Of a stretch of 29,197 nucleotides of DNA, positions 4,584-27,414 are shown piece by piece. Position numbers and translations under genes: made by a program. Origin of the DNA: a virus; the IMG/VR virus record IMGVR_UViG_3300032236_001853, positions 1-29,197 of that record; one strand, given 5' to 3'. The stretch's first letter is position 1. Each line of letters begins with the position of its first letter. Under the pieces are notes generated by a model. It worked only from the letters and a program-made list of their open reading frames with translations, searched no databases and was not told the DNA's origin.

Positions 4584-6536
4584 TTACAAAACATAATCAT
4601 TAAATACTATTGGATTTCCTGAATTAAACATAGAAACTGTACCAGAATATTCCGAAAGTGATCCCATACCAGTAACTCCATCATTTACTACTTGATTGAT
4701 TGTTGTTAAGTAAGACAAGTATCTATTTTGAGCTTGTGATAGATTTACTTGATTTGGATAAACAGAAAAATAGCCATAAACAGCATCACATGGAGTAAGC
4801 CAACCACTTTTTGCACCATTTATATATATTGAGTCTGTTAGTTGTGTGGAATAAGAGACTATAATATGATAAGACTCTCCAACGGTCAATGGAATATCCC
4901 CGCCTGTTTTATCTTGTCCGTTTATAAATAATGTTCCAGTAAAAAATGTAGTTTTTAAGTGACCCGTAGACTGATCTATGTACAAATCTCCAAAAGGATC
5001 TGCCAGTCCGCTATCTACTATCATCCCGCCCTGACCATTATATTTAAACCAAAATTCTAATGCGTGATAGGGAGTATTATTTTCAGAATATATCTTTGCA
5101 ACACCATTATTTGAATCTGGGTCTTGATTTGAAAAGTTTATGCCAAAGTTTTTAGATCTATATAAAAATCCATTTGTATTTTTTCTAATCATGTAGGTGT
5201 TGCCTTCTGTTGGGGATATTGCAAATCCGCCAGAATCTCCGATGATTTGTATTGAGTTATATATACCTACAAATAAATTATCTATTCTTGGTTGAACTGA
5301 AAATGATGTATCTGGAGAATATATTTCTACCTTTATAAGCAAGCTTGTAGCTGAACTTGATATAAAGTAAGGAACTTTTTTATTATTACCGACTTCATTA
5401 AAGGTTAACCCATTATCATAAGATGTTGAAACCACAATATACCTAGAGTTTGCCGTGGAGCTTTCTAAAGATCCTGTGTCCCAACTAATATCTATTCCCG
5501 CTGCTCCAGAGTTATTTACTATTGGAAAATTATATAGCCAATACCCATAACCTTCTTGTGAAGTATCTGTTGTTTGTAGGGTAAGTCCTGTACCATCTGA
5601 AATCAATCCGTTATAGTAACCTAGGTCGTAGTCTGACTTTACTACAAAATTTCTTTTTGCTGAAAACATACCATTGTTTGTTTTTACATCAATATAATAA
5701 CTACTACCTTGTTTTGCAAAATTATCTGGGCCAGAGTCTACGTTAGACCAAAACATATGGTTTCTTATTTCATTAAGAGATAAATTTCTTGAATATAAGG
5801 CTACATCACTTATTGTATAATAGTTTCCAGAACTGGCTGGTCCGACAACTATATCTACTTCTGAATCGCTATAAAACTCAAAGTTACTATCAATTGATAT
5901 TGATTCATCATATATTCCATTTACACAAATCTTAATAGTCTTTTCACTATAAACAGCAAATATATGAACTTTTGAGTTCCAATTTAATATTTGTTTTTTT
6001 GTAATATAAGTAGTATCTGAATAGCTATCTGTAGACTTATTGTATAGCCTTCCCTTTACAGTAAAATATAAAATGTCTGATATAGCATATACCTCGGCCA
6101 ATACGTTGCTGCTTGTATCTGTTACACTGAAGAGTGTAGTTTTTTCTACTGGACTTTGATTTAACAATACCCACGCTTCAATACCCGCCGATATTTGTTC
6201 ATATCCTTTTACAAAAAAATTATAGTTGTTTGAGATTTTTATTTTAGTTCCATCATAAATTCTACAAGCGCCTACGGTTAGGTCATCATTGCGACGAGAG
6301 GTAAGTGGGGCAACATCTATGATTTGAGAGTCTACTGTGCCAACTTCAGTTGTAGCATAGCCATTAACCAAATCTGTAAAGCTATTGGCGGGGATTACAT
6401 CTTGATAAGTTGCAATAGTTTGTAGATAATCTTGGTATGTATTGAAGTCTGCCAATAGGGTGGAGTAGGTTGGCTTTAGGGTAAATGGATAGTATGCCAA
6501 AGGCCTGCTATTTAATATTGCGTTTTTATATGACAT
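4584..6536 (-). CDS. LamG/concanavalin-like tail adhesin
   Basis: A 650-residue protein that appears to contain two LamG-like (concanavalin A-type jelly-roll) domains, common carbohydrate-binding modules of phage tail proteins. The first is near residues 110-270, with EAWVLLNQSP, then KTIKICVNGIYDESI and YTISDVALYSRNLSLNEIRNHM, a typical LamG ending. The second is near 490-590, with HALEFWFKYNG and ESYHIIVSYS followed by DSIYINGAKSGW. A beta-rich region of unknown type separates them. The N-terminus (AILNSRPLAYYPFTL) is also a LamG-style opening. It has its own promoter (6555-6563) and AGGGGT as ribosome site. The likely role is receptor or surface-glycan binding; the exact virion position is unknown. 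Confidence 0.75.
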   Translation of the reverse strand: MSYKNAILNSRPLAYYPFTLKPTYSTLLADFNTYQDYLQTIATYQDVIPANSFTDLVNGYATTEVGTVDSQIIDVAPLTSRRNDDLTVGACRIYDGTKIKISNNYNFFVKGYEQISAGIEAWVLLNQSPVEKTTLFSVTDTSSNVLAEVYAISDILYFTVKGRLYNKSTDSYSDTTYITKKQILNWNSKVHIFAVYSEKTIKICVNGIYDESISIDSNFEFYSDSEVDIVVGPASSGNYYTISDVALYSRNLSLNEIRNHMFWSNVDSGPDNFAKQGSSYYIDVKTNNGMFSAKRNFVVKSDYDLGYYNGLISDGTGLTLQTTDTSQEGYGYWLYNFPIVNNSGAAGIDISWDTGSLESSTANSRYIVVSTSYDNGLTFNEVGNNKKVPYFISSSATSLLIKVEIYSPDTSFSVQPRIDNLFVGIYNSIQIIGDSGGFAISPTEGNTYMIRKNTNGFLYRSKNFGINFSNQDPDSNNGVAKIYSENNTPYHALEFWFKYNGQGGMIVDSGLADPFGDLYIDQSTGHLKTTFFTGTLFINGQDKTGGDIPLTVGESYHIIVSYSTQLTDSIYINGAKSGWLTPCDAVYGYFSVYPNQVNLSQAQNRYLSYLTTINQVVNDGVTGMGSLSEYSGTVSMFNSGNPIVFNDYVL

Positions 6537-6554
6537 TTTTACCCCTAAACTATG

Positions 6555-6563
6555 ATTATACCA
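6555..6563 (-). promoter_or_regulatory. Extended -10 promoter for LamG adhesin
   Basis: The minus strand reads TGGTATAAT, a perfect extended -10. It overlaps the stop codon of the upstream glycosyltransferase, whose TAA lies inside the TATAAT. The ATG at 6536 is 18 bases downstream, with AGGGGT between. No -35 match was seen. Confidence 0.6.
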
Positions 6564-7449
6564 TTTTATGATGTTTTAACGTAGATAAGTCTATATCGGC
6601 ATAATATTCAAAATCTTCTATTGTTCTTTTATCTCCCAGGGCAAATCTCCCGACTATTCTATTTGCAATAATATTTTTTATTTCAATGTTTGATTGATTA
6701 AATATATCATTTGTTTTATCTGGAAAATCTTGACCCGATAACCTTCTTTTATTTTTTTCATCTTCTCCATAGTATAGATGATATAAGCTTTGTTTTTCTG
6801 GTAACATTAAATCATATCCGTGGGTAAATAATCTTATTGCTGTTAAAAATTCTTCCCCCCAATTAAACATTTTAGGGTTTGGCTCTATTGTTGCTATATC
6901 TCCTGAAGAAAATATTTCTCCTCCTGATACCGCTCTTGTAAATATATTTTCAGGTTTGTTAGGCTTTGATGTTTGATGTAAAAAATAAAAATTTTCTTCT
7001 ATGTTATTTTGTTCAAAATCAGCATAAACAACTGAGGGATATTTGTCATATTTAACGTCTGATCCTTCATAATGATATCCTGAAGGATACGCTGTTAAAA
7101 CTGGATTACATCCTTCATTTGAGTACTTTTTATAAGTATTTATAAAATCAATATCCCAATTTTTTGAAAACCTTGTATGTGCATCTATTTGAAGATAGTA
7201 ATCTTCATCTTTATAAAAACTATTTGCAATAAACCTTCCATTGCCAACGCCTAGGCCTTCAGGAGCCATTGTCTTTTCTATTTTTATATTTTTTAAATTT
7301 GGTAAATTAATTTCATCTTTATTGTAATAGCACAAATGAATTCCAAAATTAACATTATTGTTATCAGAAATTTTATCCATACAATCTTGTATTGTTTTAG
7401 GTAACTCATAGTCATGGTATGCGGATATTTGTACAAATATACTTGACAT
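6556..7449 (-). CDS. GT60-family (Skp1-type GlcNAc) glycosyltransferase
   Basis: This 297-residue protein has the hallmarks of the GlcNAc transferase family first known from Dictyostelium Skp1 Gnt1 (CAZy GT60), which moves GlcNAc from UDP-GlcNAc to hydroxyproline. It shows the sequence DYYLQIDAHTRF with the metal-binding DxH (Asp89, His91), preceded by GVGNGRFIANSFY. Later it has NWGEEFLTAIRLFTHGYDLM followed by SLYHLYY, the family's GEE...THGYD...H.Y block. There is no signal peptide or membrane segment, so it should act in the host cytoplasm. It is flanked by adhesin genes and downstream of collagen-like fibres rich in Gly-Pro-Thr. Family membership is fairly firm; the acceptor is unknown, and fibre residues are the obvious candidates. 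Confidence 0.85.
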   Translation of the reverse strand: MSSIFVQISAYHDYELPKTIQDCMDKISDNNNVNFGIHLCYYNKDEINLPNLKNIKIEKTMAPEGLGVGNGRFIANSFYKDEDYYLQIDAHTRFSKNWDIDFINTYKKYSNEGCNPVLTAYPSGYHYEGSDVKYDKYPSVVYADFEQNNIEENFYFLHQTSKPNKPENIFTRAVSGGEIFSSGDIATIEPNPKMFNWGEEFLTAIRLFTHGYDLMLPEKQSLYHLYYGEDEKNKRRLSGQDFPDKTNDIFNQSNIEIKNIIANRIVGRFALGDKRTIEDFEYYADIDLSTLKHHKMV

Positions 7450-7683
7450 CTACCATTTACCAATTGGGCATTTAGAGTTTTCTAATTTTGTTTTTACTGA
7501 CATAAAACAACCACATTTTTTACATTGTTTTGTTAAATTTATAAATTCTGGGCAAGACTTACAAATATTATATCTTTGATTTGCTATATCTTCATCAACA
7601 TATTTAGTATTTGTATTAATTAGGTCCCAAGGCCTTGCTTCTCCATTTGCCTCTTTCCACTTTTGCCATGGCGTTTTTGACAT
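7450..7683 (-). CDS. Small zinc-ribbon phage protein
   Basis: A 77-residue protein with a clear four-cysteine-plus ribbon in its second half: CKSC near residue 41, then CKKCGCF near 53, and a last cysteine in SKCPIGKW at the C-terminus. Similar small proteins ending in CPxGKW are, to my recollection, common beside structural and glycosyltransferase genes in environmental phages, with no assigned function. It has a weak ribosome site (ATAGG) and is separated by six bases from the upstream gene. Its stop codon abuts the start of the GT60 gene, so the two are probably co-expressed. Confidence 0.75.
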   Translation of the reverse strand: MSKTPWQKWKEANGEARPWDLINTNTKYVDEDIANQRYNICKSCPEFINLTKQCKKCGCFMSVKTKLENSKCPIGKW

Positions 7684-7689
7684 AAAAAC

Positions 7690-8013
7690 CTATTCTATTA
7701 AATCAAAGACTATTTGTGGGTTACTTAAAAGAGCTGCAAAAATCATCTGATTACTATCTTCTTTTGAAAATATAAATTTTTGTTCTTTTCCAGTATTTGG
7801 ACTTACCATTTTTATTCTATTACTATTTAAATATTCTTCTGGAAGATCATTATCAACCTCGTTTGTAATATCTGTAATTATAGGGTTTGACTCATAAATC
7901 TCTTCTATATCAATTTCTTTTTCAGTAATTGGAACTTTTGTTTCTGGATCCAACTTAATTACATGAAATGGTATTGTATCTTGATCAACAATAAGTTTAT
8001 AGCTTTTTATCAT
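7690..8013 (-). CDS. Hypothetical acidic protein
   Basis: A 107-residue acidic protein that I do not recognise. It has a beta-strand start (SYKLIVDQDTIPFHVIKLD), a Glu/Asp/Ile-rich middle, and a C-terminal helix with QMIFAALLSNPQIVFDLIE. There is no signal peptide or membrane segment. It is the first gene behind the only complete TTGACA-17-TATAAT promoter seen in the window, with TTGGAG five bases before its ATG. It should therefore be well expressed and leads a unit with the zinc-ribbon and GT60 genes. A chaperone or assembly role is possible but is only a guess from position. Confidence 0.7.
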   Translation of the reverse strand: MIKSYKLIVDQDTIPFHVIKLDPETKVPITEKEIDIEEIYESNPIITDITNEVDNDLPEEYLNSNRIKMVSPNTGKEQKFIFSKEDSNQMIFAALLSNPQIVFDLIE

Positions 8014-8030
8014 TTTTCTCCAATTTTATT

Positions 8031-8059
8031 ATTATATCGTTATGTATAGATTATGTCAA
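8031..8059 (-). promoter_or_regulatory. Consensus sigma-70-type promoter
   Basis: The minus strand reads TTGACA (8054-8059), a 17-base spacer, then TATAAT (8031-8036), a perfect match to the housekeeping consensus. The -35 overlaps the stop codon of the Ig-like gene. The downstream ATG at 8013 has GGAG before it. Confidence 0.8.
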
Positions 8060-8928
8060 TAACATGAGCCAGAGCAGTGTATAGTTCCCAGATGTCCGTA
8101 TCCTAGGAAATCGTACCACATACAAGATTGTCCTGTATTTGGATCACAAGGCGCTGCAGTTGTAGTGGTTGTAGTAGTAGTTGTAGTGGTGGTAGTTGGT
8201 GGCGCCTGATAAATTTCAGATACGCTAAAATTAGCACCGTAACCACTTAAAGGAATTCCAAATGCGCTAGACCATGGATTTGAACCGTTTATTGGTTGAA
8301 TTAATCCGCCTAGTGTTCCAGTAGCTCCGTTTGGTAAAGTAAATGTGGCGCTTGTTACATTTCCAAGGTAACCTTGAGTAAATCCAACATTTGGACCAGA
8401 ATACTGATAATAATATCCTGTTACACCAGCAGATGGTTGCCAATATACGTATACAACATCAGATGATTGTCTATATGCTCCCAATCCTGCGATTGGCGCT
8501 GGATATACTAATGATATTGAAGAATCTGCAGATGTATTTCCTCTTGAATTTGTAGCCTTTACAACACATTTAATATTATAACCAACTAATGTTGGATCTG
8601 ACAATGTATATGAATTTGTTGTAGATCCAGATAAAATTGTCCAACCGCCTGAATACGCTTGTTTATACCATTGATAAGTATATGTTAAGGATGCTCCAGT
8701 CCATGTTCCAGTATCTACTGTTCCTACACTTCCTATTGCTGCCCCACTTGTTCCGCTCCAAGTTATTGCGGGTGCAACTGTATTTGTTGGAAATTCAGGA
8801 TAAAATTGTTTCCAGTCTGAACCATCAAAAACAAAAGCATTTGAAGAATCAACCCATGAGGTTCCATCAAAATATTTAATTTTTTTTTCAGGATTAAAGT
8901 TTGATCCATCATTTATGCTTATAGTCAT
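8056..8928 (-). CDS. Ig/FnIII-like fibre protein with poly-Thr linker
   Basis: A 290-residue surface protein. Residues 15-45 have a short FDGSDWKQFYP-type module common at phage fibre N-termini. Residues 50-140 look like a bacterial Ig-like domain (TYQWYKQ..., then YTLSDPTLVGYNIKCVVKATNSRGN). The next 95 or so residues are probably FnIII-like (VVYVYWQPSAGVTGYYYQYSG). Then come PP, thirteen consecutive threonines and AAP, and a small tail with four cysteines (CDPNTGQSC, HCSGSC). The Thr codons are mixed (ACT, ACC, ACA), so the run is kept at protein level. Thr-rich linkers are frequent O-glycosylation sites in other systems. The ATG lacks a clear Shine-Dalgarno and lies five bases after the previous stop. 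Confidence 0.75.
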   Translation of the reverse strand: MTISINDGSNFNPEKKIKYFDGTSWVDSSNAFVFDGSDWKQFYPEFPTNTVAPAITWSGTSGAAIGSVGTVDTGTWTGASLTYTYQWYKQAYSGGWTILSGSTTNSYTLSDPTLVGYNIKCVVKATNSRGNTSADSSISLVYPAPIAGLGAYRQSSDVVYVYWQPSAGVTGYYYQYSGPNVGFTQGYLGNVTSATFTLPNGATGTLGGLIQPINGSNPWSSAFGIPLSGYGANFSVSEIYQAPPTTTTTTTTTTTTTAAPCDPNTGQSCMWYDFLGYGHLGTIHCSGSCY

Positions 8929-8933
8929 TTTAT

Positions 8934-9296
8934 TTAGTATTGAATATAGATATCTCCCGCTGCGGTACCTGATGGCGGGGTAGGTGATGTTCCATAAAAT
9001 ATTTTATTTGCAGTACTTGCTGTTCCATTTACATAAACATTTGTTGGAGCAGATGTTCCTGTAGCTCCCGTTGGTCCCGTTGGCCCTGTTGCACCATTTA
9101 AACCATTTGCTCCTGTTGGGCCAGGAATATTGCTGTCCGCACCTGTTGGACCCGTTGGTCCTTTTAATCCTTGAGGACCTGTTGGTCCTAGAGCAGTTGT
9201 GACGTTATCCCAAGCAGAGCCATTCCATTGCCATGTATAATTTCCAAAAACATACTGGTCATTTAAGTTGGGGGAAGATGGAAAATTTATAGGCAT
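8934..9296 (-). CDS. Short collagen-like fibre protein
   Basis: A 120-residue protein with an N-terminal module ([23 protein letters not shown]) of the kind that precedes collagen-like repeats in phage fibres. About twelve mostly unbroken Gly-X-Y triplets of the GPTGPQG and GATGPTG type follow. It ends with a short Ser/Thr/Pro-rich domain ([19 protein letters not shown]). Collagen-like repeats in phage proteins form trimeric stalks. The gene starts one base after the stop of the 30-residue gene upstream, whose last codons supply GAGGAG as ribosome site. Confidence 0.8.
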
Positions 9297-9297
9297 T

Positions 9298-9390
9298 TTA
9301 CTCCTCTGGCTTTACTCTTTTTTTTACAGGTATATCGTCTACTACAGGTATATGAATTTCGCCCTCTAATATTTCAATATTTTCATCCAT
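9298..9390 (-). CDS. 30-residue micro-protein
   Basis: A short reading frame encoding [20 protein letters not shown] followed by [10 protein letters not shown]. It is supported by position, not by homology: an extended -10 (9400-9408) ends nine bases before its ATG, and its stop is one base from the start of the collagen-like gene, for which its final GAG GAG codons serve as the ribosome site. It could be a true peptide or a leader cistron that couples translation to the fibre gene. The charge pattern is acidic then basic, with no membrane segment. Confidence 0.5.
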
Positions 9391-9399
9391 AATTATATA

Positions 9400-9408
9400 A
9401 TTATACCA
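9400..9408 (-). promoter_or_regulatory. Extended -10 promoter, leaderless geometry
   Basis: The minus strand reads TGGTATAAT nine bases before the ATG at 9390, so the start site should lie within a few bases of that ATG. No -35 match was seen. Confidence 0.55.
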
Positions 9409-9415
9409 TCTATTG

Positions 9416-12513: not shown

Positions 12514-14622
12514 TTATTGATTTAAGGCATTATTAAAAAAGATTAAATTATTAGATAGTCTTTCATCTGCTGGATTTATATCACAAGCGATTTTACCTTG
12601 TTCATATGCCTCTTGATATCTGCTTAAATTATACAACGCTATTGCATATAAATCATGTGGCTTTTCATTCCAAGCATATTCTTCACATAAATATTCTAAA
12701 GGCTTTACTGTAATATCTAGTGTTTGCTTGCATATATCTGCACATTCCTGCCATCTACTATTTTGATAATAGTATTCTGCTAGATCTACTAGTGCTTCCC
12801 GCCTTCCTGGTGCTTGAGCAATTGACTTCTTAAGCCATTCCTCTGCTTCTGCTGGATTACACTTAGCGATATATCTCATAGATGTAGCACGTTCTGGTGG
12901 CCAAGTTGCTGTTGGCAAAGTAAGATGCTTTTTTAATTGTTGCTCTGCTTCTTGATAATGTCCATGAAACATTAGCTCTCTTCCATAATAAAATACGTTT
13001 CTATCATTTTGAGGATCTTCTTCAACAGACATTTTTAACAAAGGAAGATATTGAGATCTACTTTTTGTGTTATCTGGATGATGATGAGTTTCTAGGCCAT
13101 CTATCCACGTTTGCTTTTCTTCAATTCCATATACATATAAACATTCATGTACGGGATGCTTCCATCTATAATTTTTTCTTGAGTGAATGTGGTCATATGA
13201 AAATTCTAGCCCTGGAGTTCCATCTTCTTTCCAACTCCAAACATGCTTATATCTTGGACGGGTAATTCCTTGTGCCCAAGCATTTTCTAGTGGCTCCCGC
13301 CAGTTTGGAGTAATTACTTCATCCATGTCTAGCGAAATACACATATCAATATCTTTTGGGAGTGCTGCTAGTGCAGCATTACGAGCATCATCAAATCTCC
13401 ATGGGACAACATTTACAGTTACGACATTAATTCCTAATTCTTCTGCAAGCTTTACAGTATTGTCTGTTGATCCCGTATCAGCAATAAGCAAGTAATCTGC
13501 ATCCTTTGCAGATTCATACCATCTTTTTACAAATTGTTCTTCATTTAGTGCAATTGTGTATATTGCTACCTTCATAGTTTTCTTCATCTTTTCTTTGTAA
13601 AGTTCAAGATTATTTTGCAATCTTGAATCGGCGGGATTCATAGATAACGCTTTACTTCCATATTCTACTGCATCCCTATATAATTCTAAATTATAGCATG
13701 ATAATGAAGCAAGATCATATGGCTTATTTCCCCATGCTTCTTCTCTATATGTAAAGCCATCTCTTTTGTGATTTACATTTATACATTTTTTAGCATATTG
13801 TAAACATTTATCCCAGTCTTGTTTTTCATAAAATAGCTCTGCATAGAATAAGGTATTCTCCTTTTCTTCGCTATCTTGTAGGCTAATATCAAACCATTTA
13901 ATGGCATTCTCTAGGTCACCTAGTGATTGGTAATTTCTTGCTATATAGCTTGATGTATAAGATTTTGTAAGGCTTGTATTATCTTCAGCATTATAACTTT
14001 CTATTTTATATTTAATGGAGTTTTCAAGGTCCCCCAAAGTTTCATATTCTATTGAAAGAAAGTAAAATGTTTTCCAGTCTTTTTCTTCTTTTATTTTTTT
14101 TAAAAGTAGGGGTAGATAAGATTTTCTATCTTTATTTATATCCTGTTTTTCATCTAAAAAAATGGTGTCAATATAGACTTCATTTTGAGGCATATCCCAT
14201 TTAAGATTTTCATGAACTACTCCGAACCATTGGCAATTATTTCTATTATGTATTTTGCTATGCCATTGCCATGGGTTGCTATTGTTCCTATATTTATGGT
14301 AATAAACTGTAATTTCTGGTTTATAGGATTTTTCTAGTTCTTCCCGCCAATTATCATTTAATGACTCATCTAAGTCAAGAGATACGCAAACATCTATATC
14401 TGCAGGTATTGAATTTAAGGCAATGTTTCTTGCCTCATCAAATCTCCAAGGATTAACATTTATTTCAATTACATTTATACCGAGTTGGCGGGCTTTTTCA
14501 ACAGTCCCATCATTTGATCCTGTATCTGCAATTAAAACATAATCAGCTAATTTGGCGGAAGCAAACCATTTGTCAAGAAACTTTTCTTCATTCTTGACAA
14601 TAGTATATACAGCTATTTTCAT
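12514..14622 (-). CDS. Tandem-duplicated GT2-TPR glycosyltransferase
   Basis: A 702-residue protein consisting of two homologous halves that join at Met350. Each half starts with a GT-A/GT2 domain: MKIAVYTIVKNEE...LIADTGSNDGT in the first and MKVAIYTIALNEE...LIADTGSTDNT in the second, with DxD motifs in SLDLDE (81-86) and SLDMDE (about 430-435). Each continues with NPWRFDEARN / VPWRFDDARN and ends in helical TPR-like repeats (DLENAIKWFDISL and others) finishing with a NPADxRLxNNL motif. The same GT2 plus TPR plan is known from protein-modifying enzymes such as SunS. Both halves keep the DxD, so both may be active. No strong ribosome site precedes Met350. The substrate is unknown; phage fibres are plausible. 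Confidence 0.85.
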   Translation of the reverse strand: MKIAVYTIVKNEEKFLDKWFASAKLADYVLIADTGSNDGTVEKARQLGINVIEINVNPWRFDEARNIALNSIPADIDVCVSLDLDESLNDNWREELEKSYKPEITVYYHKYRNNSNPWQWHSKIHNRNNCQWFGVVHENLKWDMPQNEVYIDTIFLDEKQDINKDRKSYLPLLLKKIKEEKDWKTFYFLSIEYETLGDLENSIKYKIESYNAEDNTSLTKSYTSSYIARNYQSLGDLENAIKWFDISLQDSEEKENTLFYAELFYEKQDWDKCLQYAKKCINVNHKRDGFTYREEAWGNKPYDLASLSCYNLELYRDAVEYGSKALSMNPADSRLQNNLELYKEKMKKTMKVAIYTIALNEEQFVKRWYESAKDADYLLIADTGSTDNTVKLAEELGINVVTVNVVPWRFDDARNAALAALPKDIDMCISLDMDEVITPNWREPLENAWAQGITRPRYKHVWSWKEDGTPGLEFSYDHIHSRKNYRWKHPVHECLYVYGIEEKQTWIDGLETHHHPDNTKSRSQYLPLLKMSVEEDPQNDRNVFYYGRELMFHGHYQEAEQQLKKHLTLPTATWPPERATSMRYIAKCNPAEAEEWLKKSIAQAPGRREALVDLAEYYYQNSRWQECADICKQTLDITVKPLEYLCEEYAWNEKPHDLYAIALYNLSRYQEAYEQGKIACDINPADERLSNNLIFFNNALNQ

Positions 14623-14625
14623 ATA

Positions 14626-15303
14626 TTAAATTTCTGTAGGTACGTGTGTCCAGTCAATTTTTAAAATTTTATGATGATTAACCATAACATCTGGATAACA
14701 ATAAATAGGAATTTGTTGTTCGTAGGCCTGAATACACCAAGAAATATCTTCTCCTAATGTTTCTGTAAAAATAGAACCATCTTCTAATTTTCTATCTTGA
14801 TGGTAATGCCCAAACCAAGGTCTATGCATTGATTCAAATACTCCACTTTTAACAGCAATAAATCCAAAACCACAACTTCTTATTTCAAATTCTTTAGACA
14901 TTCCTTTAATTATGTGGGCTGGCATTCCTCCAGGTTTTTCTACGGCATGAACGCTTGTAGTTGTTGCGTCACCCAAAAGATAAACTCCTGTTGCAATTTG
15001 ATGTTCTGAATTATATAGTTTAAAAAAATCATCAACTGTCCATGAAATATCTGAGTCAATCCAAAATATTTTATTGTATGTTACGGTATCAGATAAAGGA
15101 CCTTTATCTTGAGGGTTTAATAAAAGCCCACCGCCAGAAATAGTTAATTCTCTTGCATTTCCCACTAAAGAGGATCTTCCATTTAACCATTTATAAGAAA
15201 TATTTTTTTTATTTAATTCAATTAAAGTATCTACCAAACTTGCTACATAGTCTGCTTCTAAATTTTCTCCTGGGGTAGCTATCAATACATCGTAATGTTC
15301 CAT
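14626..15303 (-). CDS. GT-A fold glycosyltransferase
   Basis: A 225-residue putative nucleotide-sugar transferase. It has LIATPGENLEADYVASL at the N-terminus, RSSLVGNAREL near 43-53, a DxD in FWIDSDISW (Asp83, Asp85), a GGMPAHIIKG loop, and ETLGEDISWC (Glu185, Asp186), the usual place of the general base in GT-A enzymes. VNHHK near 208-212 is a typical late metal-ligand histidine. It lacks a signal peptide or membrane segment. It has a promoter (15340-15348) and a good ribosome site (AAAGGA), and is followed three bases later by the duplicated GT2-TPR gene, so the two form a glycosylation operon. Confidence 0.8.
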   Translation of the reverse strand: MEHYDVLIATPGENLEADYVASLVDTLIELNKKNISYKWLNGRSSLVGNARELTISGGGLLLNPQDKGPLSDTVTYNKIFWIDSDISWTVDDFFKLYNSEHQIATGVYLLGDATTTSVHAVEKPGGMPAHIIKGMSKEFEIRSCGFGFIAVKSGVFESMHRPWFGHYHQDRKLEDGSIFTETLGEDISWCIQAYEQQIPIYCYPDVMVNHHKILKIDWTHVPTEI

Positions 15304-17273: not shown

Positions 17274-18743
17274 TTATGCTCCTAATCCTACAAAGAATAT
17301 TGGGTCTATCCCGCCTGAACTTGAACTACCTGCTGGTCCTGTGGCACCTGCAGCACCTGTTGGGCCTGTGGCTCCGTTTGAACCTGCTGAACCTGCAGCA
17401 CCTGTTGGGCCTGTGGCTCCGTTTGAACCTGCTGAACCTGCAGCACCTGTTGGGCCTGTTGGTCCACTACCAGAACCGCCTGAACCAGCTGGACCTGTTG
17501 GTCCTACTGCACCTTGTGCACCTGTTGGGCCTGTTACTGAATTACCTTGTGCGCCTGTTGGTCCTGTGGCTCCGTTTGAACCTGCTGAACCTGCAGCACC
17601 TGTTGGACCTGTGGCCCCATTGTTTCCTGCAGAACCTGTTGGCCCTGTAGCCCCGTTTGAACCTGCTGAACCTGCAGCACCTGTTGGGCCTGTTACTGAA
17701 TTACCTTGTGCGCCTGTTGGGCCTGTTGCACCTGTGTTACCTACAGAACCTTGTACACCTTGAATACCTTGAGCACCTGTTGGACCCGTTGCACCTGTAT
17801 TACCAGTTGAACCTTGTGCGCCTGTTGGTCCTGTGGCTCCGTTTGAACCATTAGAACCTGCTGGACCCGTGGCTCCTACTGAACCATTAGCTCCTGTTGG
17901 ACCTGTAGCCCCATTGTTTCCTGCAGCACCTGTTGGGCCAACTGCTCCAACTGCACCATCAAGATTTACTGTCCAGGCAGCGTGTGTTCCTGTTCCTGCA
18001 CTTGCTTTAATTGTAAATGCTAAAGCACCATTTGAAGAATTATAAGATGTAACTTCACCAATTACATAATTATTTACATCAAAAGCAACAATAACATTTT
18101 GTGCTATTGAGTATGCTAATCCTGTACCAATTGTAATTGTTTGAGTTCCGCTGCTTGCAATTGCAAATGATGTTGAAGATGTTGTTTGATAAGAGTCTCC
18201 TCTTGATCCTGTAGCACCTGTTGCACCAGTTGCACCAGTTGGACCTTGTGGCCCCGTAGCACCTACTGCACCATTGGAACCTGTTGGACCCGTTGCGCCT
18301 TGTGGTCCTGTTGCGCCAGTATTACCTGTTGCACCTGTTGGTCCTGTTGCGCCTGTATTACCTACAGAACCTTGTACACCTTGAATACCTTGAGCACCTG
18401 TTGGGCCTGTTGCGCCTTTATTACCTGTTGCACCTGTTGGTCCTGTTGCAAATTGAAGTTGTGCTGTTGGAACATATCCATTTCCATCAAGCTCTGCTAC
18501 TCCACCTGGTGCACCTTTTTCTGAAAAAGCAATATAATCTGTACCTGCTACTGGCAGGTAAGTTGAAATATCTGAAGGGAGAACTGAAGCATATGACAAA
18601 TCTGTCCAAGCAGTGTTACCTGTACCAATTTTAAATTTTCCAGAGTCTGTTTCAAATCCCACCTCACCTTGTGATAAAGTTGGATTTACAGAAGTCCATT
18701 GACTTGCTGAATCTCTTCTTACTTGAATTTTACTAGTTGTCAT
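17274..18743 (-). CDS. Collagen-like fibre with Mtd-like N-terminus
   Basis: A 489-residue fibre. The N-terminal 60 residues ([20 protein letters not shown] and [20 protein letters not shown]) match the module found at the start of Bordetella phage Mtd-like and many environmental phage fibres. [17 protein letters not shown] follows. Then come long Gly-X-Y blocks with the shared beta domain [18 protein letters not shown] near residues 180-265, and further Gly-X-Y repeats almost to the end, with [14 protein letters not shown] as the tail. The last third contains near-perfect DNA repeats. Ribosome site AAGGAGA and an extended -10 (18762-18770) lie upstream. Confidence 0.85.
17351..17440 (+). repeat. 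Two tandem 45-bp collagen-coding repeats
   Basis: Units 17351-17395 and 17396-17440 appear identical, and a partial third copy follows. Each encodes five Gly-X-Y triplets, so unit number can change without frameshift. Parts of the unit recur near 17570-17690. Confidence 0.85.
18146..18205 (+). repeat. 60-bp repeat shared with 11520-11579
   Basis: This block is identical to 11520-11579 and encodes the start of the same beta domain in a different fibre. The third copy of the domain, in the fibre at 18804-20480, is diverged at DNA level. Confidence 0.85.
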
Positions 18744-18803: not shown

Positions 18804-20480
18804 TTAAGAACTTGAATTTCCTCCACTAATTGTGAAGTCAAAGCTTTGAGTTGAAGCATTTCCACCCGTAAATGAGTAGTCAAAACTTTGTGTTGAAGCA
18901 TTTCCACCTTGAGCATTTGAAGGAACTGCATCAATAAGTGGAATCATCTTCCAAACTGAGTTTACATAAATCATCAAGTTTAATGTTGCTGAATTTACAT
19001 ATGTGGTTCCTTCTATTGGATCTGTTGGGTCTGCAGTTAATACTTGAATAAAATTATTTGGTCCCGCTGCACCAGTAGCGCCTGTTGGGCCCATATCTCC
19101 TGCAACACCTGTTGGGCCTACAGCACCTGTTGGTCCAGTTACTGATGGACCTGTTGGACCTTGTGATCCTTGTGATCCTGTTGCGCCTGTTGGACCCTGA
19201 ATACCTTGTTGTCCTTGAATTCCTTGAACACCTTGTGGACCTGTTGGGCCTTGTGAACCCGCTGTTCCTGTTGGTCCAGTTACTGATGGACCTGTTGGAC
19301 CTTGTGATCCTTGTGATCCTGTTGCGCCTGTTGGACCAGTTACTGCTGGACCTGTTGGGCCTTGAATACCTATAGCACCATCAAGATTTACTTGCCAAGA
19401 ACTATATGTTCCAGATCCTGTGTGACTATCTTTTGTAAAAGTTAAATTTCCTGTATTTGCATCATAACTAGAAACAGTTCCATGTTGATGATTATTAACA
19501 TCATAAGCAACAATAATTGATTGACCTATTGAATAATCAACATTTACATCTGCAACTACAATTGTTTGAGTTCCTGAATTAGCTAATGTAAATGAAGTTG
19601 TAGATGTAGTTGCATATTTATCTCCGTCTAATCCCGCATTTCCTTGTGGGCCAGTTGAACCTGTTGCACCTGTTGGACCTTGTGGTCCTGTTGCTCCTGT
19701 ATTACCAGTTGCACCTGTGGCGCCTGTTGTTCCTTGAACTCCTTGAATTCCTTGAACACCCTGAGGGCCTGTTGGGCCAGGGTTTGCAGCGATTGCAGAA
19801 GTTAAGTCAGCTTTTGTAATAATTTTATTATCATTGCTTGAATCAGAATTTGCATAAATTGATCCGCTTGCACTTAAAATTAAATTACCACTTGAAGCGC
19901 TTATTGAAAGATTATTCCCAGAACCTGAGTTAAATGCTAGTGCATCTCCAAAAGTTTTGTTTGTTAATGTTTGTGCACCACTTACCGTTACATATGTTGA
20001 TGTATCTGGTGCTGGTCCCGTAGCACCTGTAGCACCCGTTGGGCCTGTTACGTGACTATCTGCTCCCATAGCACCTGTTGGACCTTGTGGTCCTGTAGCA
20101 CCTGTTGCGCCATTAGATCCATTAGCTCCCGTTGCACCTGTAGCACCCGTTGGGCCTGTTATTGAATTACCTTGAGCACCTGTTGGTCCTGTGGCAAAAC
20201 GAAGTTGTGCTGTTGGAACATATCCATCTCCATCAAGTTCAGCTACACCGCCTGCTGCGCCTTTTTCTGAGAATGCAATATAATCGGTTCCAGCAACTGG
20301 AATACTAATTTCTGAAGCAAGAACTGAAGAATATACTAATGAATTCCATGTACTACTGCCATTACCAATTTTAAATTTTGCAGTATCTAACTCAAATCCA
20401 ATTTCACCTTCTGAAAGTACAGGATTTTGTGATGTCCATTGTGCGGCATTTCCACGTCTAATTTGAATTTTTGTTGTCAT
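18804..20480 (-). CDS. Collagen-like fibre with Mtd-like N-terminus, paralogue
   Basis: A 558-residue paralogue of the fibre at 17274-18743. It has the same N-terminal module ([40 protein letters not shown]) and [14 protein letters not shown]. It then alternates Gly-X-Y blocks with a beta-helical stretch ([38 protein letters not shown]) and the third copy of the shared domain ([18 protein letters not shown]). The C-terminal module [18 protein letters not shown] is followed by two 14-residue repeats, [14 protein letters not shown] and [14 protein letters not shown]. The start is supported by TAGGAG, and an extended -10 lies inside the end of the upstream gene. Confidence 0.85.
18837..18908 (+). 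repeat. 42-bp imperfect tandem repeat
   Basis: Blocks 18837-18866 and 18879-18908 differ at only two or three positions and have a 42-base period. They encode the repeated [11 protein letters not shown]-terminal motif of the fibre. Confidence 0.7.
19126..19196 (+). repeat. 71-bp direct repeat, copy 1 (copy 2 at 19267-19337)
   Basis: The 71 bases appear identical to 19267-19337, offset by 141 bases (47 codons). They lie in Gly-X-Y coding sequence. In-frame recombination between the copies would delete 47 residues. Confidence 0.8.
19267..19337 (+). repeat. 71-bp direct repeat, copy 2
   Basis: This is the second copy of the block at 19126-19196, and it ends where the sequences diverge after GGACC. 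Confidence 0.8.
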
Positions 20481-20489
20481 TATTTACTC

Positions 20490-20777: not shown

Positions 20778-20794
20778 TTAATTCCTTTTAATTG

Positions 20795-20817
20795 GGCGGG
20801 GATTTTTAGTCCCCGCC
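20795..20817. terminator. GC-rich hairpin, polarity unclear
   Basis: There is a perfect 8-bp stem, GGCGGGGA / TCCCCGCC, with a 7-base loop, placed between the large fibre gene and the 95-residue gene. On the minus strand, the direction of these genes, the stem is not followed by a U-run. On the plus strand it is followed by TTAATTTATTTTATT. It could be a terminator facing antisense transcription or an RNA-stability hairpin after the fibre gene. Confidence 0.5.
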
Positions 20818-20830
20818 TTAATTTATTTTA

Positions 20831-23284: not shown

Positions 23285-23316
23285 TTTTTTTATTTCCCCT
23301 TATTTATTTTTTTTTA

Positions 23317-23958
23317 TTAGGATAAGTATGCATACCCTGAAACATGTTCAGAAAACGTTAATGTTAACTGATTTTCATTAGTATGTCCTATATCACATTC
23401 TATATTATTTTGTCCATAATCCATAACAATTACATTAGGTCTAAATCCTAAATTATGAGTTATGTTCCAAACTGTTGCATTTGATTGTTGTTCATATGTA
23501 AAAGATACAAGTGATACATTAAAAGGTGTTGGATCTCCTTGATCTCCTTTTGGTCCCGTCGGTCCTTGTATACCTTGTGAACCCGTTGGTCCTTGTGAAC
23601 CTGTTGGTCCATCTGGACCTTGCGAACCTGTTGGTCCCCTTAAACCTGTTGGTCCTTGTGAACCTGTTGGTCCTTGTAAACCTTGTGCACCTGTTGGTCC
23701 TTGCACACCTTGTGAACCTGTTGGTCCTGTAACACCAATTATTGGTCCTGAAGAAACCCATTGAGATTGTTCAGAAGACCATATATATAAAACTGAATTT
23801 ACTAGGTAGGCGTCCCCTACGTTTCCTGTTGGATGGGCTGCTTGTAACGCTGCAAGTGAACTGTATGCACCTAATACGGTAACTCCACCTGCTGGACCTG
23901 TTGGTCCTTGTAAACCTCTAGATCCTTTTGCACGTACTACAATTACATTATTTGCCAT
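23317..23958 (-). CDS. Collagen-like fibre with capped C-terminus
   Basis: A 213-residue fibre. It has a short N-terminus ([20 protein letters not shown]), then the [20 protein letters not shown]...[11 protein letters not shown] module that also occurs in the fibre at 10798-12492. About 60 residues of Gly-X-Y, rich in GPTGSQ and GPTGLRG, follow. The C-terminal domain is [20 protein letters not shown] ... HVSGYAYLS, a frequent phage fibre cap. Its ATG overlaps the stop of the upstream gene as TAATG, with GGGGAC as weak ribosome site. Confidence 0.85.
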
Positions 23959-24317
23959 TAGTCAATAGTCCCCGCATTCACTAGAAACCAACCTTGAAGA
24001 AAAGTAGTATTTTCTCCATATGGGTCTGTTCCCTGTATTTGATAAGATGCTCTTGGATAATTGAATTTGCGAGTTTTTTCTGGAGATACGGATATTTCAA
24101 TAATTCCATTAGCTTCGTCAATAATGTCTATTCCATCACCGACTGTACATCTTGCAGATAGAATTCTTCCACCTGGTCTATCTTTTACTTCCATAATTAC
24201 ACTAAACCCAGTAAGATCTATGGGATTGTCGTCTGGGTCTTTATATTCTAGCTCAAGGGAAAAAGTATCACCTTGCGTGACTTTCCAATTAACATCTTTA
24301 TCCGAAGTTACGGCCAT
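23958..24317 (-). CDS. Small beta-sandwich tail/baseplate-type protein
   Basis: A 119-residue beta-rich protein, [20 protein letters not shown], then [20 protein letters not shown] and [20 protein letters not shown]. This pattern is like the N-terminal domain of BppU-type baseplate proteins and related small tail proteins; the match is by eye only. It opens the fibre operon, directly after the terminator of the reductase gene, and has its own extended -10 (24351-24359). It overlaps the collagen fibre as TAATG, which suggests that it anchors that fibre to the tail. Confidence 0.65.
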
Positions 24318-24350
24318 TTTTCCCCATAAAAAATACGTATTTGTAGAGTT

Positions 24351-24359
24351 ATTATATCA
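24351..24359 (-). promoter_or_regulatory. Extended -10 promoter of fibre operon
   Basis: The minus strand reads TGATATAAT, 33 bases before the ATG at 24317 and just downstream of the reductase terminator. No -35 consensus was seen. Confidence 0.6.
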
Positions 24360-24384
24360 AGTTAATTTAATAAATCATAAGAAA

Positions 24385-24409
24385 TCCCCGCCATTATAAA
24401 AAGCGGGGA
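24385..24409 (-). terminator. Intrinsic terminator after ribonucleotide reductase
   Basis: The stem is TCCCCGC / GCGGGGA with an 11-base loop. On the minus strand it is followed by TTTCTTATGATTTATT. It lies 22 bases past the reductase stop codon and before the next promoter. Confidence 0.75.
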
Positions 24410-24431
24410 CAAACTATTTTTACTGTGTAGA

Positions 24432-26363
24432 TCAAGCGTTTATATCTACAATTTCACATTCTCCAGATACACAGGCTAATGCTTGTGTTCCAGTTGTTGT
24501 ATCTTCTAATTCATACATAGATAATGCTTGCCATTGGATACTTTCTGGCATTTTAGCCAAAAGATCATTATAGGCAGATTCATCAATTTCTTGATATGGA
24601 GCTTGTACATAAGTATGATCTGAATAAGGCAGAAATGAAATTCCAGAAACTTCATCAAAATGCTTATATACCCATGCTCCAACTTCCATCCATTCATCTT
24701 CTTTAACAGATACTGTAATTGATGGTTTATGCTCACACCAATGGCGTTGATAGGTTAGCCAAATTTCAAGTTGATCAATTGCTGTTAACTTATCTCTAGT
24801 GATTGCATTTGATGGAGCCTTTACTGGAAATGAAAATACTGTTGTATCTTGTGGCTTCATAAAATCATCTTCTGCAGGAATTCCTGAGTCCTTTAAAAAT
24901 TGAGTTAAAGGATCTTTTTTATCTCCACGAACTGTTCTAATATAATAATCTGAATGCCATGGATGCATTCCTGAACTTACCCCGACCAATTGAGAAACTG
25001 TACCTGATGGCTTTACACAAGTCACCGCAGCAGAAGCGGGAATCCCAATTTTCCCTGCTTCTTCAATATTTGTTGTAACAGCATATTCACGAAGTTTATC
25101 TAAAACATCGGCAAGCTTATCAAGGCCATCTTGTCCAGAAAAAAATTTATTACCGAACTGCCCAGTTAAAGAAACACCTAGTAGTCTTTCTTCTTCGGTA
25201 TTGTCTTTCCAAACTTTACGTATGTACTTAAAATCTGTAAGCGTAGATTGCCACGTACCAAGTATAGACGCAAGTCTAACTTTATTAGCAACAGTTTCAG
25301 GTGTATCTTCTTCACGTAATACGACTTCTGAAAGATTACAAAATTGATAAGGTCTGAGAATAATTTCTGAACATGGGTTTGTTCCATAGTGAATCTCTGG
25401 ATCTCTGCGTCCATATTTTGCTGCTTGCTTTTGTGCTGCTGCAACATTGTAGATTCCACGTTCTCCCGACTTTGAATCATAAAGCGATTTCCATTCTGCT
25501 ATAAATTGAGCCATTTCTGGTTTGCGTGAGTATGCAACAGAATTGTTTGACAAGGCACGTTGAGAATTATTTTCCCACCAATTACCTGCCTTTGCTGCTG
25601 CCATTTCAATATCATTAATATTTGAAAGCGAAATCATTGCAGAGCGACGAACACCACCGACTACAACTACTTCACCAATCTTACACATAATGTCATGAGC
25701 TTCAATTGGTTTTAATTGACGACCAAGTGCTCCTTTAAAAATTTGAATTGTAAAGTCAAAAAGATTTACCAACGGTTGTGGGCCTGAAGATCTTCCACCC
25801 ATTGTCTTAAGACGTGCACCAGAAGGGCGAACCTTACTAATATCAATTTGAGGAATTTGTCCAGCCCATAGAAGTGAAAGAAGTTCACGATAAGCTTTTG
25901 CCCATCCTTCTTTTGAATCTCCAACTGAAACAACTGTGTTTGATTTTTCTAATGTTTCTGGGAGGGCAGGAAGTTTATTGATGTACTTATACTCAACAGA
26001 AAATCCAACTCCAGTTCCACACATAAGAATATACATTGCTTCATCAAATGATTTTAAGTTATCTACTGGAAGAAATGCACAGTTATATCCAGATACATTT
26101 TCTCTTTCTAGCGCTGGTCCCGCCGTCATAACGGAACGCATTGATGGCATAACATTTCTATTAAAAACTGCATCACGCAATTCTTTAACTAATTTTGAAT
26201 CTGGTTCATATGCATGCTTAGCAAATAATTGATCCAACATAAACTTGAAATAACGATCAACCGTTTCACCCCATGTTTCTCTGCGATTCTCATCTTCTAG
26301 CCAACGAGCGTAGCGGGAGAGTGCAATAAAATTTTCATATGGGTTTTCAATTACGTTAGACAT
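24432..26363 (-). CDS. nrdJ: Adenosylcobalamin-dependent ribonucleotide reductase, class II monomeric
   Basis: A 643-residue enzyme that reduces ribonucleotides (triphosphates in the Lactobacillus leichmannii type) to deoxyribonucleotides for phage DNA synthesis. Matching residues are Cys95 in SGYNCAF (L. leichmannii Cys119), Cys331 and Glu333 in TNPCSEI (thiyl-radical Cys408, Glu410), and Cys342 in QFCNLSE (Cys419), with the same 11-residue spacing. The C-terminal shuttle pair is Cys631 and Cys636 (CVSGEC, same spacing as Cys731/Cys736). The length and single-chain form fit the monomeric class II type, with no R2 subunit gene next to it. Adenosylcobalamin would have to come from the host. 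AAGGAGA and an extended -10 precede the ATG; a terminator follows. Confidence 0.95.
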   Translation of the reverse strand: MSNVIENPYENFIALSRYARWLEDENRRETWGETVDRYFKFMLDQLFAKHAYEPDSKLVKELRDAVFNRNVMPSMRSVMTAGPALERENVSGYNCAFLPVDNLKSFDEAMYILMCGTGVGFSVEYKYINKLPALPETLEKSNTVVSVGDSKEGWAKAYRELLSLLWAGQIPQIDISKVRPSGARLKTMGGRSSGPQPLVNLFDFTIQIFKGALGRQLKPIEAHDIMCKIGEVVVVGGVRRSAMISLSNINDIEMAAAKAGNWWENNSQRALSNNSVAYSRKPEMAQFIAEWKSLYDSKSGERGIYNVAAAQKQAAKYGRRDPEIHYGTNPCSEIILRPYQFCNLSEVVLREEDTPETVANKVRLASILGTWQSTLTDFKYIRKVWKDNTEEERLLGVSLTGQFGNKFFSGQDGLDKLADVLDKLREYAVTTNIEEAGKIGIPASAAVTCVKPSGTVSQLVGVSSGMHPWHSDYYIRTVRGDKKDPLTQFLKDSGIPAEDDFMKPQDTTVFSFPVKAPSNAITRDKLTAIDQLEIWLTYQRHWCEHKPSITVSVKEDEWMEVGAWVYKHFDEVSGISFLPYSDHTYVQAPYQEIDESAYNDLLAKMPESIQWQALSMYELEDTTTGTQALACVSGECEIVDINA

Positions 26364-26393
26364 TTTTCTCCTTGATTTTTAAAATAGATTCCT

Positions 26394-26402
26394 AGTGTAT
26401 CA
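26394..26402 (-). promoter_or_regulatory. Extended -10 promoter of reductase gene
   Basis: The minus strand reads TGATACACT, 30 bases before the ATG at 26363, with AAGGAGA between. It lies eleven bases after the stop of the upstream glycosyltransferase. Confidence 0.5.
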
Positions 26403-26412
26403 CACTAAAATT

Positions 26413-27414
26413 CTAAAAATACTCTTTTTCAATTTTTTTCAATCTCTCAACTGCAGGTTTAGAGACTTTTTTCCAGTTGTAGTCTTTATGGATTAAAAAT
26501 GCATTATTATAAGAAACTGCAGAATAATATTCATAGTCAGTAACTACATCTTCCATAAAATATTTTAATTCGTTATAATTTGGTTTTAATAAAAGTCCTG
26601 GATGAGTTGTAGGCCAAGGAGACTTCCACCATTTAGAATTTAATGGCATAGTAATATATTTAGCGTATGTTGCCCATCCTTCTGTACAAATTGTTGGAAT
26701 TCCTTTTGCCATTGCTTGAAGAGGATTAAATCCAAAACCTTCTCCCCAACTAGGGTAAACAAAAACATCACATAGGTCGTATAAGCCATCCATTTGCTCT
26801 ACAGATAAAAATGATTCTATAATTTTTATATTAGGGTAAAAGGTACTTGGTGATCCTTTTACATGCCCGTCTTTTTTATCAAAAATTCTAGTGGTATTTA
26901 AATTACTGCATTTTAAAATGAGTTCGTAATTAGGATTGTTTCCATAAAGGCTTACAAATGCATCAACCACCATTTGTGCATCTTTTCTAAAAGCTGGCTC
27001 TCCTATGTGCAAAAATCTAAATGGGCGGGAAGGATTAATTTCCCTTTTCTTAGGAATCCAATTATCTTGAACACCATGCTCATATACAAATACAGGTTTA
27101 TCAGTATGCTTTTTAAATATCTCAGCACACCAAGGAGATGTTGTCCAAAGTTCATCAATTAAATCATTTAGGGGTTTTTTCCAGCTAGGAAAAATATCAG
27201 TTGACTCCCATGGAGTATATCCGATCTTATATTGATTTTTTCCAAACCTGTATTGATCTGGTTGAATAAATGATATCCCAATTTTAGGATCTCTTGATTT
27301 AATTAAGCATTCTATGCCCATATCTTCAAAAGTATTTATAATATGAGTTGACGCTTCACCATATCCAACATTACGATCCATCCATTCTGGAGCACCCGTA
27401 AACGATATTTTCAT
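26413..27414 (-). CDS. GT4-family glycosyltransferase (GT-B fold)
   Basis: A 333-residue enzyme. The N-terminus (MKISFTGAPEWMDRNVGYGE) has the glycine-rich loop of GT-B acceptor domains, and the C-terminal half has FRFLHIGEPAFRKDAQMVVD, then FVYPSWGEGFGFNPLQAMAK with the paired acidic residue region (E-x7-type) that binds the donor sugar nucleotide in GT4 enzymes. There is no signal peptide or membrane segment. It transfers a sugar from an activated donor; the target is unknown and could be a phage protein, DNA base or host glycan. It is the first gene of the leftward block, with AGGAA as ribosome site and an extended -10 at 27437-27445. Confidence 0.85.
   Translation of the reverse strand: MKISFTGAPEWMDRNVGYGEASTHIINTFEDMGIECLIKSRDPKIGISFIQPDQYRFGKNQYKIGYTPWESTDIFPSWKKPLNDLIDELWTTSPWCAEIFKKHTDKPVFVYEHGVQDNWIPKKREINPSRPFRFLHIGEPAFRKDAQMVVDAFVSLYGNNPNYELILKCSNLNTTRIFDKKDGHVKGSPSTFYPNIKIIESFLSVEQMDGLYDLCDVFVYPSWGEGFGFNPLQAMAKGIPTICTEGWATYAKYITMPLNSKWWKSPWPTTHPGLLLKPNYNELKYFMEDVVTDYEYYSAVSYNNAFLIHKDYNWKKVSKPAVERLKKIEKEYF

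Follow-up and report, generated by a model that had tools for sequence, protein, structure and literature searches.

Glycosylation of a collagen-like protein by an enzyme encoded beside it is known from C. difficile, where the gene for SgtA, a protein of 358 amino acids (aa) with a GT-A domain followed by TPR repeats, lies directly upstream of bclA3, and where the enzyme places beta-O-linked N-acetylglucosamine (GlcNAc) on threonines of collagen-region peptides, or on serine if threonine is replaced (PMC7157674). A second reaction is represented by glycosyltransferase family GT60, whose T. cruzi members make GlcNAc-alpha-O-Thr in mucin-like proteins (PMC9472816) and which also includes Skp1 Gnt1 (PMC6939170). 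Mimivirus L230 is a viral enzyme that glycosylates the virus's own collagen-like proteins on hydroxylated lysine (PMC9614988), and in the mycobacteriophages Che8 and Rita structural proteins carry glycans for which phage-encoded glycosyltransferases are thought to be responsible (PMC11256854, PMC12619734). Here, we describe a stretch of 29,197 bases, the fragmentary virus record IMGVR_UViG_3300032236_001853 (IMG/VR; hereafter, the window), in which glycosyltransferase genes lie among genes for collagen-like fibres and a poly-Thr protein on a Stanwilliamsviridae-like actinophage backbone. It appears probable (roughly 0.6) that the window carries at least two cassettes, each consisting of a fibre gene and its own glycosyltransferase, within a swappable host-recognition block. 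Sequence comparison supports a likely acceptor for two of the four enzymes, namely collagen rich in Gly-Pro-Thr (GPT) for a GT2-TPR enzyme and the poly-Thr protein for a GT60 enzyme.

The enzyme of the collagen cassette (gene at 12514; Table 1) matches the Pfam GT2 and TPR profiles in two copies, and its halves, of about 350 aa each, are 37% identical to each other and both retain the DTGS, D-x-D-E, and VHE motifs. In the predicted model, a mixed strand-helix domain extends to residue 165 and is followed by helices at residues 173–352, which corresponds to the SgtA layout of GT-A and then TPR. The model of one half (pLDDT 94.9) is similar to the peptide glycosyltransferases SunS and ThuS (Z 20–21; 257–283 residues at 3.4–5.7 Å), and its fold also resembles TarP, TarS, and RmlT, which act on teichoic acids; a PDB sequence search returned GmaR (E 2e-4). 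With SgtA–BclA3, to which it is likened through the described layout of SgtA, the window pair shares the domain order, the size of each half, the location beside a GPT-rich collagen-like gene, and Thr-rich repeats. It differs in that the acceptor would be a phage fibre rather than a spore coat protein, that two units are fused, and that four other collagens are present.

All genes reported in the earlier note, four for enzymes and five for collagen-like proteins, are present on the minus strand at the positions given there; they were identified by profile matches or, for the gene at 14626, by predicted fold and motifs. The PF01391 collagen profile scores above its cut-off in the five genes at 8934, 10798, 17274, 18804, and 23317, and the described bias of their repeats toward GPT and Gly-Ala-Thr (GAT) was likewise confirmed: among 266 Gly-X-Y triplets in runs of at least five, 26% are GPT and 15% GAT, and Thr occupies 50% of the Y positions, compared with 7.6% of all residues in the window's non-collagen proteins. 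The collagen encoded beside the GT2-TPR gene is 29% GPT with Thr at 60% of Y positions (68 triplets). Thr shares at Y of 47% and 46% are found in the proteins at 17274 (97 triplets) and 18804 (59 triplets); the short protein at 8934 is 43% GPT (14 triplets), and that at 23317 has Gln at 39% and Thr at 36% of Y positions (28 triplets). The GPT bias alone constitutes weak evidence, since in the collagen-like proteins of Gram-positive bacteria 48.3% of the Y residues are Thr (PMC8968730) and since the prophage collagen EPclA, produced in E. coli, is unglycosylated and stable to 42 °C (PMC3368898). The weight of the case comes from triplet bias and enzyme varying together.

Viral loci were first selected by their enzyme, without regard to collagen; each scan contributed no more than its 80 best matches (out of at least 561 for GT2-TPR and 512 for GT60), and these were reduced at 95% enzyme identity, collagen being scored as an open reading frame (ORF) with at least six consecutive Gly-X-Y triplets. 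Collagen lies within 5 kb at 39 of 54 GT2-TPR loci, 5 of 54 GT60 loci, and 2 of 27 loci of the phrog_1574 family, to which the protein encoded at 14626 belongs (GT2-TPR versus GT60, Fisher 1.4e-11), and at 22 of the 24 GT2-TPR loci for which each flank spans 5 kb or more. Counted per cluster at 70% identity, the numbers are 7/12, 3/31, and 1/7, respectively. The converse selection, by collagen, was made among the matches listed for three GPT triplets (at least 120 loci) and for three G[I/T]Q triplets (at least 113 further loci). Among these listed loci, GT2-TPR matches of at least 200 bits occur in 15 of 115 GPT-only as against 4 of 113 G[I/T]Q-only loci (p=0.015), and three of the latter four also have GPT-rich collagen. 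When the 219 listed loci with at least 10 triplets are binned by GPT share, GT2-TPR is present in 1/113 below 15%, 2/25 between 15 and 25%, and 17/81 at 25% or above (outer bins, Fisher p=1.4e-6). The 21 GT2-TPR enzymes of the listed collagen-picked loci fall into 15 clusters at 70% identity.

A comparable trend is seen among phages related to the window. GT2-TPR and GPT-type collagen (GPT 26–47%) occur together in the window, L070/L200, L026, and L050, the last with just 9 triplets; L026 and L050 are looser relatives, the former joined via its phrog_1574 and ribonucleotide reductase genes and the latter having a portal of 45% identity. Where GPT falls below 5%, Gln occupies at least 39% of Y positions in 10 of 15 rows. 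Four phages (G007, G021, G015/L083, and G009) have GPT shares of 5–28% without GT2-TPR, yet each contains GT60. Either enzyme is present in all eight records with GPT at 5% of triplets or more as against 3 of 11 others (p=0.003), a count that was noticed post hoc and in which one of the three rests on a weak GT60 match; it derives from 24 rows after merging L083 and G015 as one phage and omitting the partial loci L084, L126, L129, and L130.

The association is not restricted to viruses. When bacterial and archaeal genomes were scanned with the enzyme as the sole criterion, 79 loci were obtained (the best 79 of at least 343), including Planctomycetes, Actinomycetota, Proteobacteria, and Clostridia; the bacterial homologues show 23–58% identity. 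Collagen is encoded in the flanks (up to 6 kb a side) of 56 of these and within 300 bp in 39, and Thr occupies 64% of the Y positions of the linked triplets. For scale, the collagen profile matched 3 of 14 whole control genomes, which are not locus-matched controls.

Several other arrangements were observed around GT2-TPR genes. Three tandem copies beside a gene for a collagen of 1012 aa, on another phage contig (L220:10001-13028), probably parallel the fusion found in the window. A Fringe-like (PF02434) gene directly precedes GT2-TPR in L200:9279-9968, both being flanked by collagen genes, and its product could extend the first sugar. In another phage lineage, genes for FAD-dependent tryptophan halogenases lie beside GT2-TPR and near collagen genes (L145:11071-12576, L175:8400-9986, and L010:22222-23793, the last being DSL-LC01), in L145 accompanied by a methyltransferase gene; halogenation is a possible further fibre modification. 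In DSL-LC01, an Actinomycetia phage, a gene for GPT-rich collagen is located about 3 kb from GT2-TPR.

The enzyme of the second cassette scores 126.5 bits against the PF11397 GlcNAc/GT60 profile (cut-off 21) and has a D-x-H in place of a D-x-D motif, QIDAH at residues 87–91; D-x-H is common to families GT27 and GT60 (PMC7185993). A PDB sequence search with this protein returned nothing useful, and in a single-query scan for its relatives seven stretches fitted the pattern, none of which was confirmed. An alignment query retrieved 80 loci (the best 80 of 512). Runs of at least eight Thr are encoded in 18 of the 54 nonredundant GT60 loci, whereas the six other sets (54, 27, 80, 120, 113, and 79 loci; 473 in total) contain none, a link found post hoc while the poly-Thr run was being checked. 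At 15 of these 18 loci, the gene with the run shares the strand of GT60 and terminates 376–705 bp upstream of it (606 bp in the window); it lies farther upstream in L238 and L257 and downstream in L302. One or two small genes, DUF6171 among them, are often found in between, and the window follows the order poly-Thr protein, 107-aa protein, DUF6171, and GT60. Where two or more ORFs precede GT60, poly-Thr within four gene positions becomes rarer with decreasing identity to the window enzyme: 10/14 at 45% or above, 5/16 at 36–45%, and 2/21 at 25–36%. The 13-Thr run of the window is encoded by mixed ACT, ACC, and ACA codons and is therefore not a plain DNA triplet repeat. Together with the collagen counts given above, these numbers bear on the earlier note's question of whether the same gene pairs co-occur in other phages: linkage is seen for the collagen pair in viruses and bacteria and for the poly-Thr pair in viruses. 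With the polypeptide alpha-GlcNAc transferases of this family (of T. cruzi, OGNT, and of Dictyostelium) and with Skp1 Gnt1, the window protein shares the PF11397 match, the D-x-H motif, and a Thr-rich mucin-like stretch, here located in its neighbour; it differs in being phage-encoded, in its position beside DUF6171 and the poly-Thr protein, and in that the search of the window yielded no prolyl hydroxylase.

A role of GT60 as a collagen enzyme is unsupported, collagen being near only the five of 54 loci mentioned above. Across the 31 records of the window and its relatives, GT60 (14 records) and collagen (18 records) coincide in 9 as against about 8.1 expected, and a GT60 hidden Markov model (HMM) found no match in the 120 GPT and 113 G[I/T]Q listed loci; this HMM recovers 80 of 80 GT60 loci, but these came from its own seed, so that no independent measure of its sensitivity is available. 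The earlier note had pointed to the modification of hydroxyproline by Skp1 GT60 enzymes and had suggested a search for prolyl hydroxylase genes elsewhere in the genome; in such a route, GT60 would act on hydroxyproline in the collagen repeats. The membership of Skp1 Gnt1 in the family and the presence of PF13640, the 2OG-Fe(II) oxygenase profile, in 12 of the 31 records would fit such a route. However, the window, itself a genome fragment, has no PF13640 match, 6 records contain GT60 together with PF13640 as against about 5.4 expected, the low collagen linkage of GT60 applies here as well, and the three records with the largest oxygenase arrays have neither collagen nor GT60 matches. The hydroxyproline route is thus not borne out and appears most improbable; GlcNAc-alpha-O-Thr in mucin-like proteins (PMC8724618) is, by analogy, the better precedent. 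The arrays themselves, of six to ten PF13640 matches, are found in L062/L134 (G010, 21–29 kb), L107 (G025), and L111 (G026). Counts obtained with a home-made 2OG HMM (10/120 GPT and 3/113 G[I/T]Q listed loci, 1/79 GT2-TPR loci, and 13/80 GT60 loci) are suggestive at most.

Both cassettes reside in a block of about 20 kb that comprises the five collagen-like genes, the poly-Thr gene, and glycosyltransferase genes. The backbone around it is 57% (capsid), 53% (portal), and 59% (ribonucleotide reductase) identical to Streptomyces phage Gilson (Stanwilliamsviridae) with shared gene order; it is on this homology and order that the likeness rests, the family rank not being fixable from a fragment. 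In Gilson, the corresponding interval, from ribonucleotide reductase to a small pre-portal gene, holds an endolysin and one gene of 564 aa. The portal served as a neutral marker for finding relatives (80 viral portal relatives, the best 80 of 427), and 11 records in which GT4 and portal genes are both present, taken from these and other records, were mapped beside the window. The resulting 12 blocks share their flanks, namely GT4, ribonucleotide reductase, and a gene of 119 aa (matched weakly, at 32%, in G018) on one side, and a gene of 112 aa and the portal on the other; the interior between ribonucleotide reductase and portal is swapped and has little in common, as in a hypervariable host recognition cluster. 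Such islands for host recognition have been described in freshwater actinophages, in one case with two collagen-like proteins (PMC10202952), and in pelagimyophages, where they include glycosyltransferases (PMC7029224); glycosyltransferases among fibres are therefore not new in themselves. The Mtd_N domain, named after the phage major tropism determinant, opens the collagen fibres at 17274-18743 and 18804-20480 and fits a role in host recognition. A Subtilase-family (PF00082) protease gene was also observed within the fibre block of collagen-rich phages (L145:5046-6632), with relatives in 7 of 25 mapped neighbourhoods.

The pelagimyophage and cyanomyophage clusters resemble the window in combining a hypervariable fibre block with glycosyltransferases, the same phages having structural proteins with collagen repeats; their glycosyltransferases are read as modifiers of the host O-chain, and the parts of that account available describe no enzyme–acceptor pairing (PMC7029224). 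By extension, the enzymes of the window, whose block is equally variable, might alter host surface glycans, thereby blocking superinfection or changing the receptor, and share the block with fibres only through a common role in host recognition; the resemblance of the phrog_1574 and GT2-TPR folds to TarP, TarS, and RmlT would agree with this. Yet such a function gives no reason to expect GT2-TPR to follow GPT-type collagen among the listed loci, or another glycosyltransferase to follow poly-Thr, and none of the four enzymes has a stretch resembling a membrane helix. Action on host glycans is therefore considered unlikely. A lack of any functional link, with a recombination hot spot gathering enzymes and fibres independently of each other and the associations reflecting shared phage lineages and habitats, would be consistent with 12 blocks that share flanks and little inside, with GT60 and collagen coinciding at chance level, and with the dominance of one cluster in the viral GT2-TPR set. 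Against this stand the extension of the GT2-TPR linkage to distant bacterial homologues and the fact that a different enzyme accompanies a different type of acceptor, so that independent gathering is rather improbable.

Several points nevertheless weigh against the assignment of each fibre to its own enzyme. The viral counts are weakened by lineage redundancy, 39 of the 54 GT2-TPR loci forming a single cluster at 70% identity. Among the listed GPT-rich loci, 64 of 81 have no GT2-TPR in the available stretch (bin medians 8.3–8.9 kb), and GPT-rich collagens, such as that of G007, may often do without this enzyme; conversely, GT2-TPR is present without GPT triplets in L095, and the distant homologues of Lu11 and PaBG have no collagen within 10 kb. 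EPclA, which folds stably without sugars when made in E. coli, indicates that sugars are not required by every phage collagen. In phages RAS14 and XacN1, the surroundings of GT60 contain no poly-Thr and no collagen, and the GT60s of window-related phages are 20–31% identical to the window enzyme and lack poly-Thr neighbours, for which reason the GT60 cassette of the window looks imported. Shared location could also reflect cassette hitch-hiking. The main weaknesses are short contigs, lineage redundancy in the viral GT2-TPR set, and the fact that the poly-Thr result was obtained post hoc.

For the remaining two enzymes, a place in the fibre system is not supported. The protein encoded at 14626 has no Pfam or NCBIfam match, belongs only to phrog_1574, a family of unknown function, and found no match in a PDB sequence search; it is called a glycosyltransferase on the basis of predicted fold and motifs. 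Its AlphaFold2 model (pLDDT 89.2) has a GT-A fold that is nearest to A197 of the archaeal virus STIV (Z 18.4), followed by LH3 (residues 294–536; Z 16.5), yeast Mnn9 (15.6), Mimivirus R699 (15.0), COLGALT1 (14.3), and TarP/RmlT (about 13). The similarity to R699, LH3, and COLGALT1 (Z 14–16.5) is what the window has in common with collagen modification in Mimivirus; the window repeats differ in being Thr-rich, and phrog_1574 is not linked to collagen genes. A role as a collagen enzyme is not supported, the evidence amounting to fold likeness, with collagen within 5 kb of 2 of 27 nonredundant relatives. The GT4 gene (Glycos_transf_1, 39.1 versus a cut-off of 26.4) adjoins ribonucleotide reductase in all 12 mapped blocks, the 11 relatives having been picked for holding it, and also in Gilson, which has two GT4 homologues and no run of six Gly-X-Y in its first 50 kb. 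It is present where collagen is absent, five of the 12 blocks (G004, G010, G011, G018, and G025) having no PF01391 match and G018 only a five-triplet run, and it was rejected as part of the fibre system. Of the four enzymes that the earlier note placed within or at the edge of the block, that at 26413 lies outside, beyond ribonucleotide reductase; of its single system for glycosylated fibres, the pairs of GT2-TPR with GPT-type collagen and of GT60 with poly-Thr are supported, and the inclusion of the enzymes at 14626 and 26413 is not. The constancy of GT4 beside ribonucleotide reductase would suit glycosylation of phage DNA (hypermodified bases), one role offered for the glycosyltransferases of freshwater actinophages (PMC10202952), and GT4 alone may still be of this kind. 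As an account of all four enzymes, DNA glycosylation is highly improbable, given that GT2-TPR and GT60 lie within the fibre block beside Thr-rich proteins and that the predicted GT2-TPR fold is like that of peptide glycosyltransferases.

Table 1. Genes of the window considered in the text (window coordinates)
Feature	Coordinates	Strand	Remarks
Two fused GT2-TPR glycosyltransferases, 702 aa	12514..14622	-	Glycos_transf_2 + TPR, two copies; SgtA-like architecture
Collagen-like fibre, 564 aa	10798..12492	-	PF01391; 21 bp downstream of GT2-TPR gene
Collagen-like fibre, 489 aa, Mtd_N N-terminus	17274..18743	-	PF01391
Collagen-like fibre, 558 aa, Mtd_N N-terminus	18804..20480	-	PF01391
Short collagen-like protein, 120 aa	8934..9296	-	PF01391
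Collagen-like protein, 213 aa	23317..23958	-	PF01391
Poly-Thr protein, 290 aa, run of 13 Thr	8056..8928	-	Proposed acceptor of GT60 enzyme
107-aa protein between poly-Thr gene and DUF6171	7690..8013	-	Without Pfam match
DUF6171 protein, 77 aa, Cys-rich	7450..7683	-	Recurrent GT60 neighbour
GT60-family (PF11397) glycosyltransferase, 297 aa	6556..7449	-	D-x-H motif QIDAH
phrog_1574 protein, 225 aa	14626..15303	-	Predicted GT-A fold
GT4-type glycosyltransferase	26413..27414	-	Glycos_transf_1; conserved backbone gene by ribonucleotide reductase
Ribonucleotide reductase	24432..26363	-	One edge of fibre block
Laminin_G_3 (ConA-like lectin) protein	4584..6536	-	Portal-side edge of block
Portal protein	2603..4189	-	Other edge of block
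Major capsid protein	18..1145	-	About 57% identical to Streptomyces Stanwilliamsviridae phages

If each fibre is modified by its own enzyme, catalysis, the identity of the sugar, its timing relative to assembly, and its physical role can be envisaged as follows. The TPR parts of the fused GT2-TPR enzyme would bind unfolded collagen-like chains, and, while the triple helix is still open, a sugar, most likely GlcNAc, would be placed on the Thr of Gly-Pro-Thr and Gly-Ala-Thr triplets. In animal collagen, trimer formation puts an end to modification of the chains (PMC8968730), so that the fibres are probably modified before they fold. In the second cassette, GT60, encoded beside the DUF6171 and 107-aa proteins, would add GlcNAc-like sugars to the poly-Thr stalk of the protein encoded at 8056, turning it into a stiff mucin-like linker. 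The sugars may make the stalks stiffer and more hydrated, protect them against proteases, and keep the adhesin heads away from the virion. More tentatively, cassettes of an acceptor and its own O-glycosyltransferase may be mobile among phages and, for the collagen pair, among bacteria; the window may have taken up both, its fibres then being glycosylated collagen rods and mucin-like brushes, and fibre evolution may possess a post-translational layer that can be read from genomes.

The SgtA–BclA3 reaction, mucin-type initiation by GT60, glycosylation of mycobacteriophage virions, and collagen modification by mimivirus L230 are already known. In mycobacteriophages, capsid and tail-tube subunits are described as modified, in contrast to the Thr-rich fibres proposed here. 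No paper on glycosylated phage collagen-like or poly-Thr fibres was found in titles and abstracts, the subscription literature lying mostly outside the search, and papers on viral collagens (PMC6316719, PMC3368898, PMC9614988), in the portions available, describe no such glycosylation in phages. As far as these searches go, the pairing of enzyme and acceptor in phages and its wide recurrence are new. Amino-acid sequence is usually the only basis on which the host range of tail fibres is read. If enzymes inherited together with the fibres glycosylate them, fibres expressed in E. coli in the absence of their enzyme would be incomplete, with consequences for structural and host-range work, and the proven bacterial SgtA reaction would extend to many phages and several bacterial phyla. 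The pairing offers testable enzyme–acceptor pairs and a candidate function for phage GT60 enzymes.

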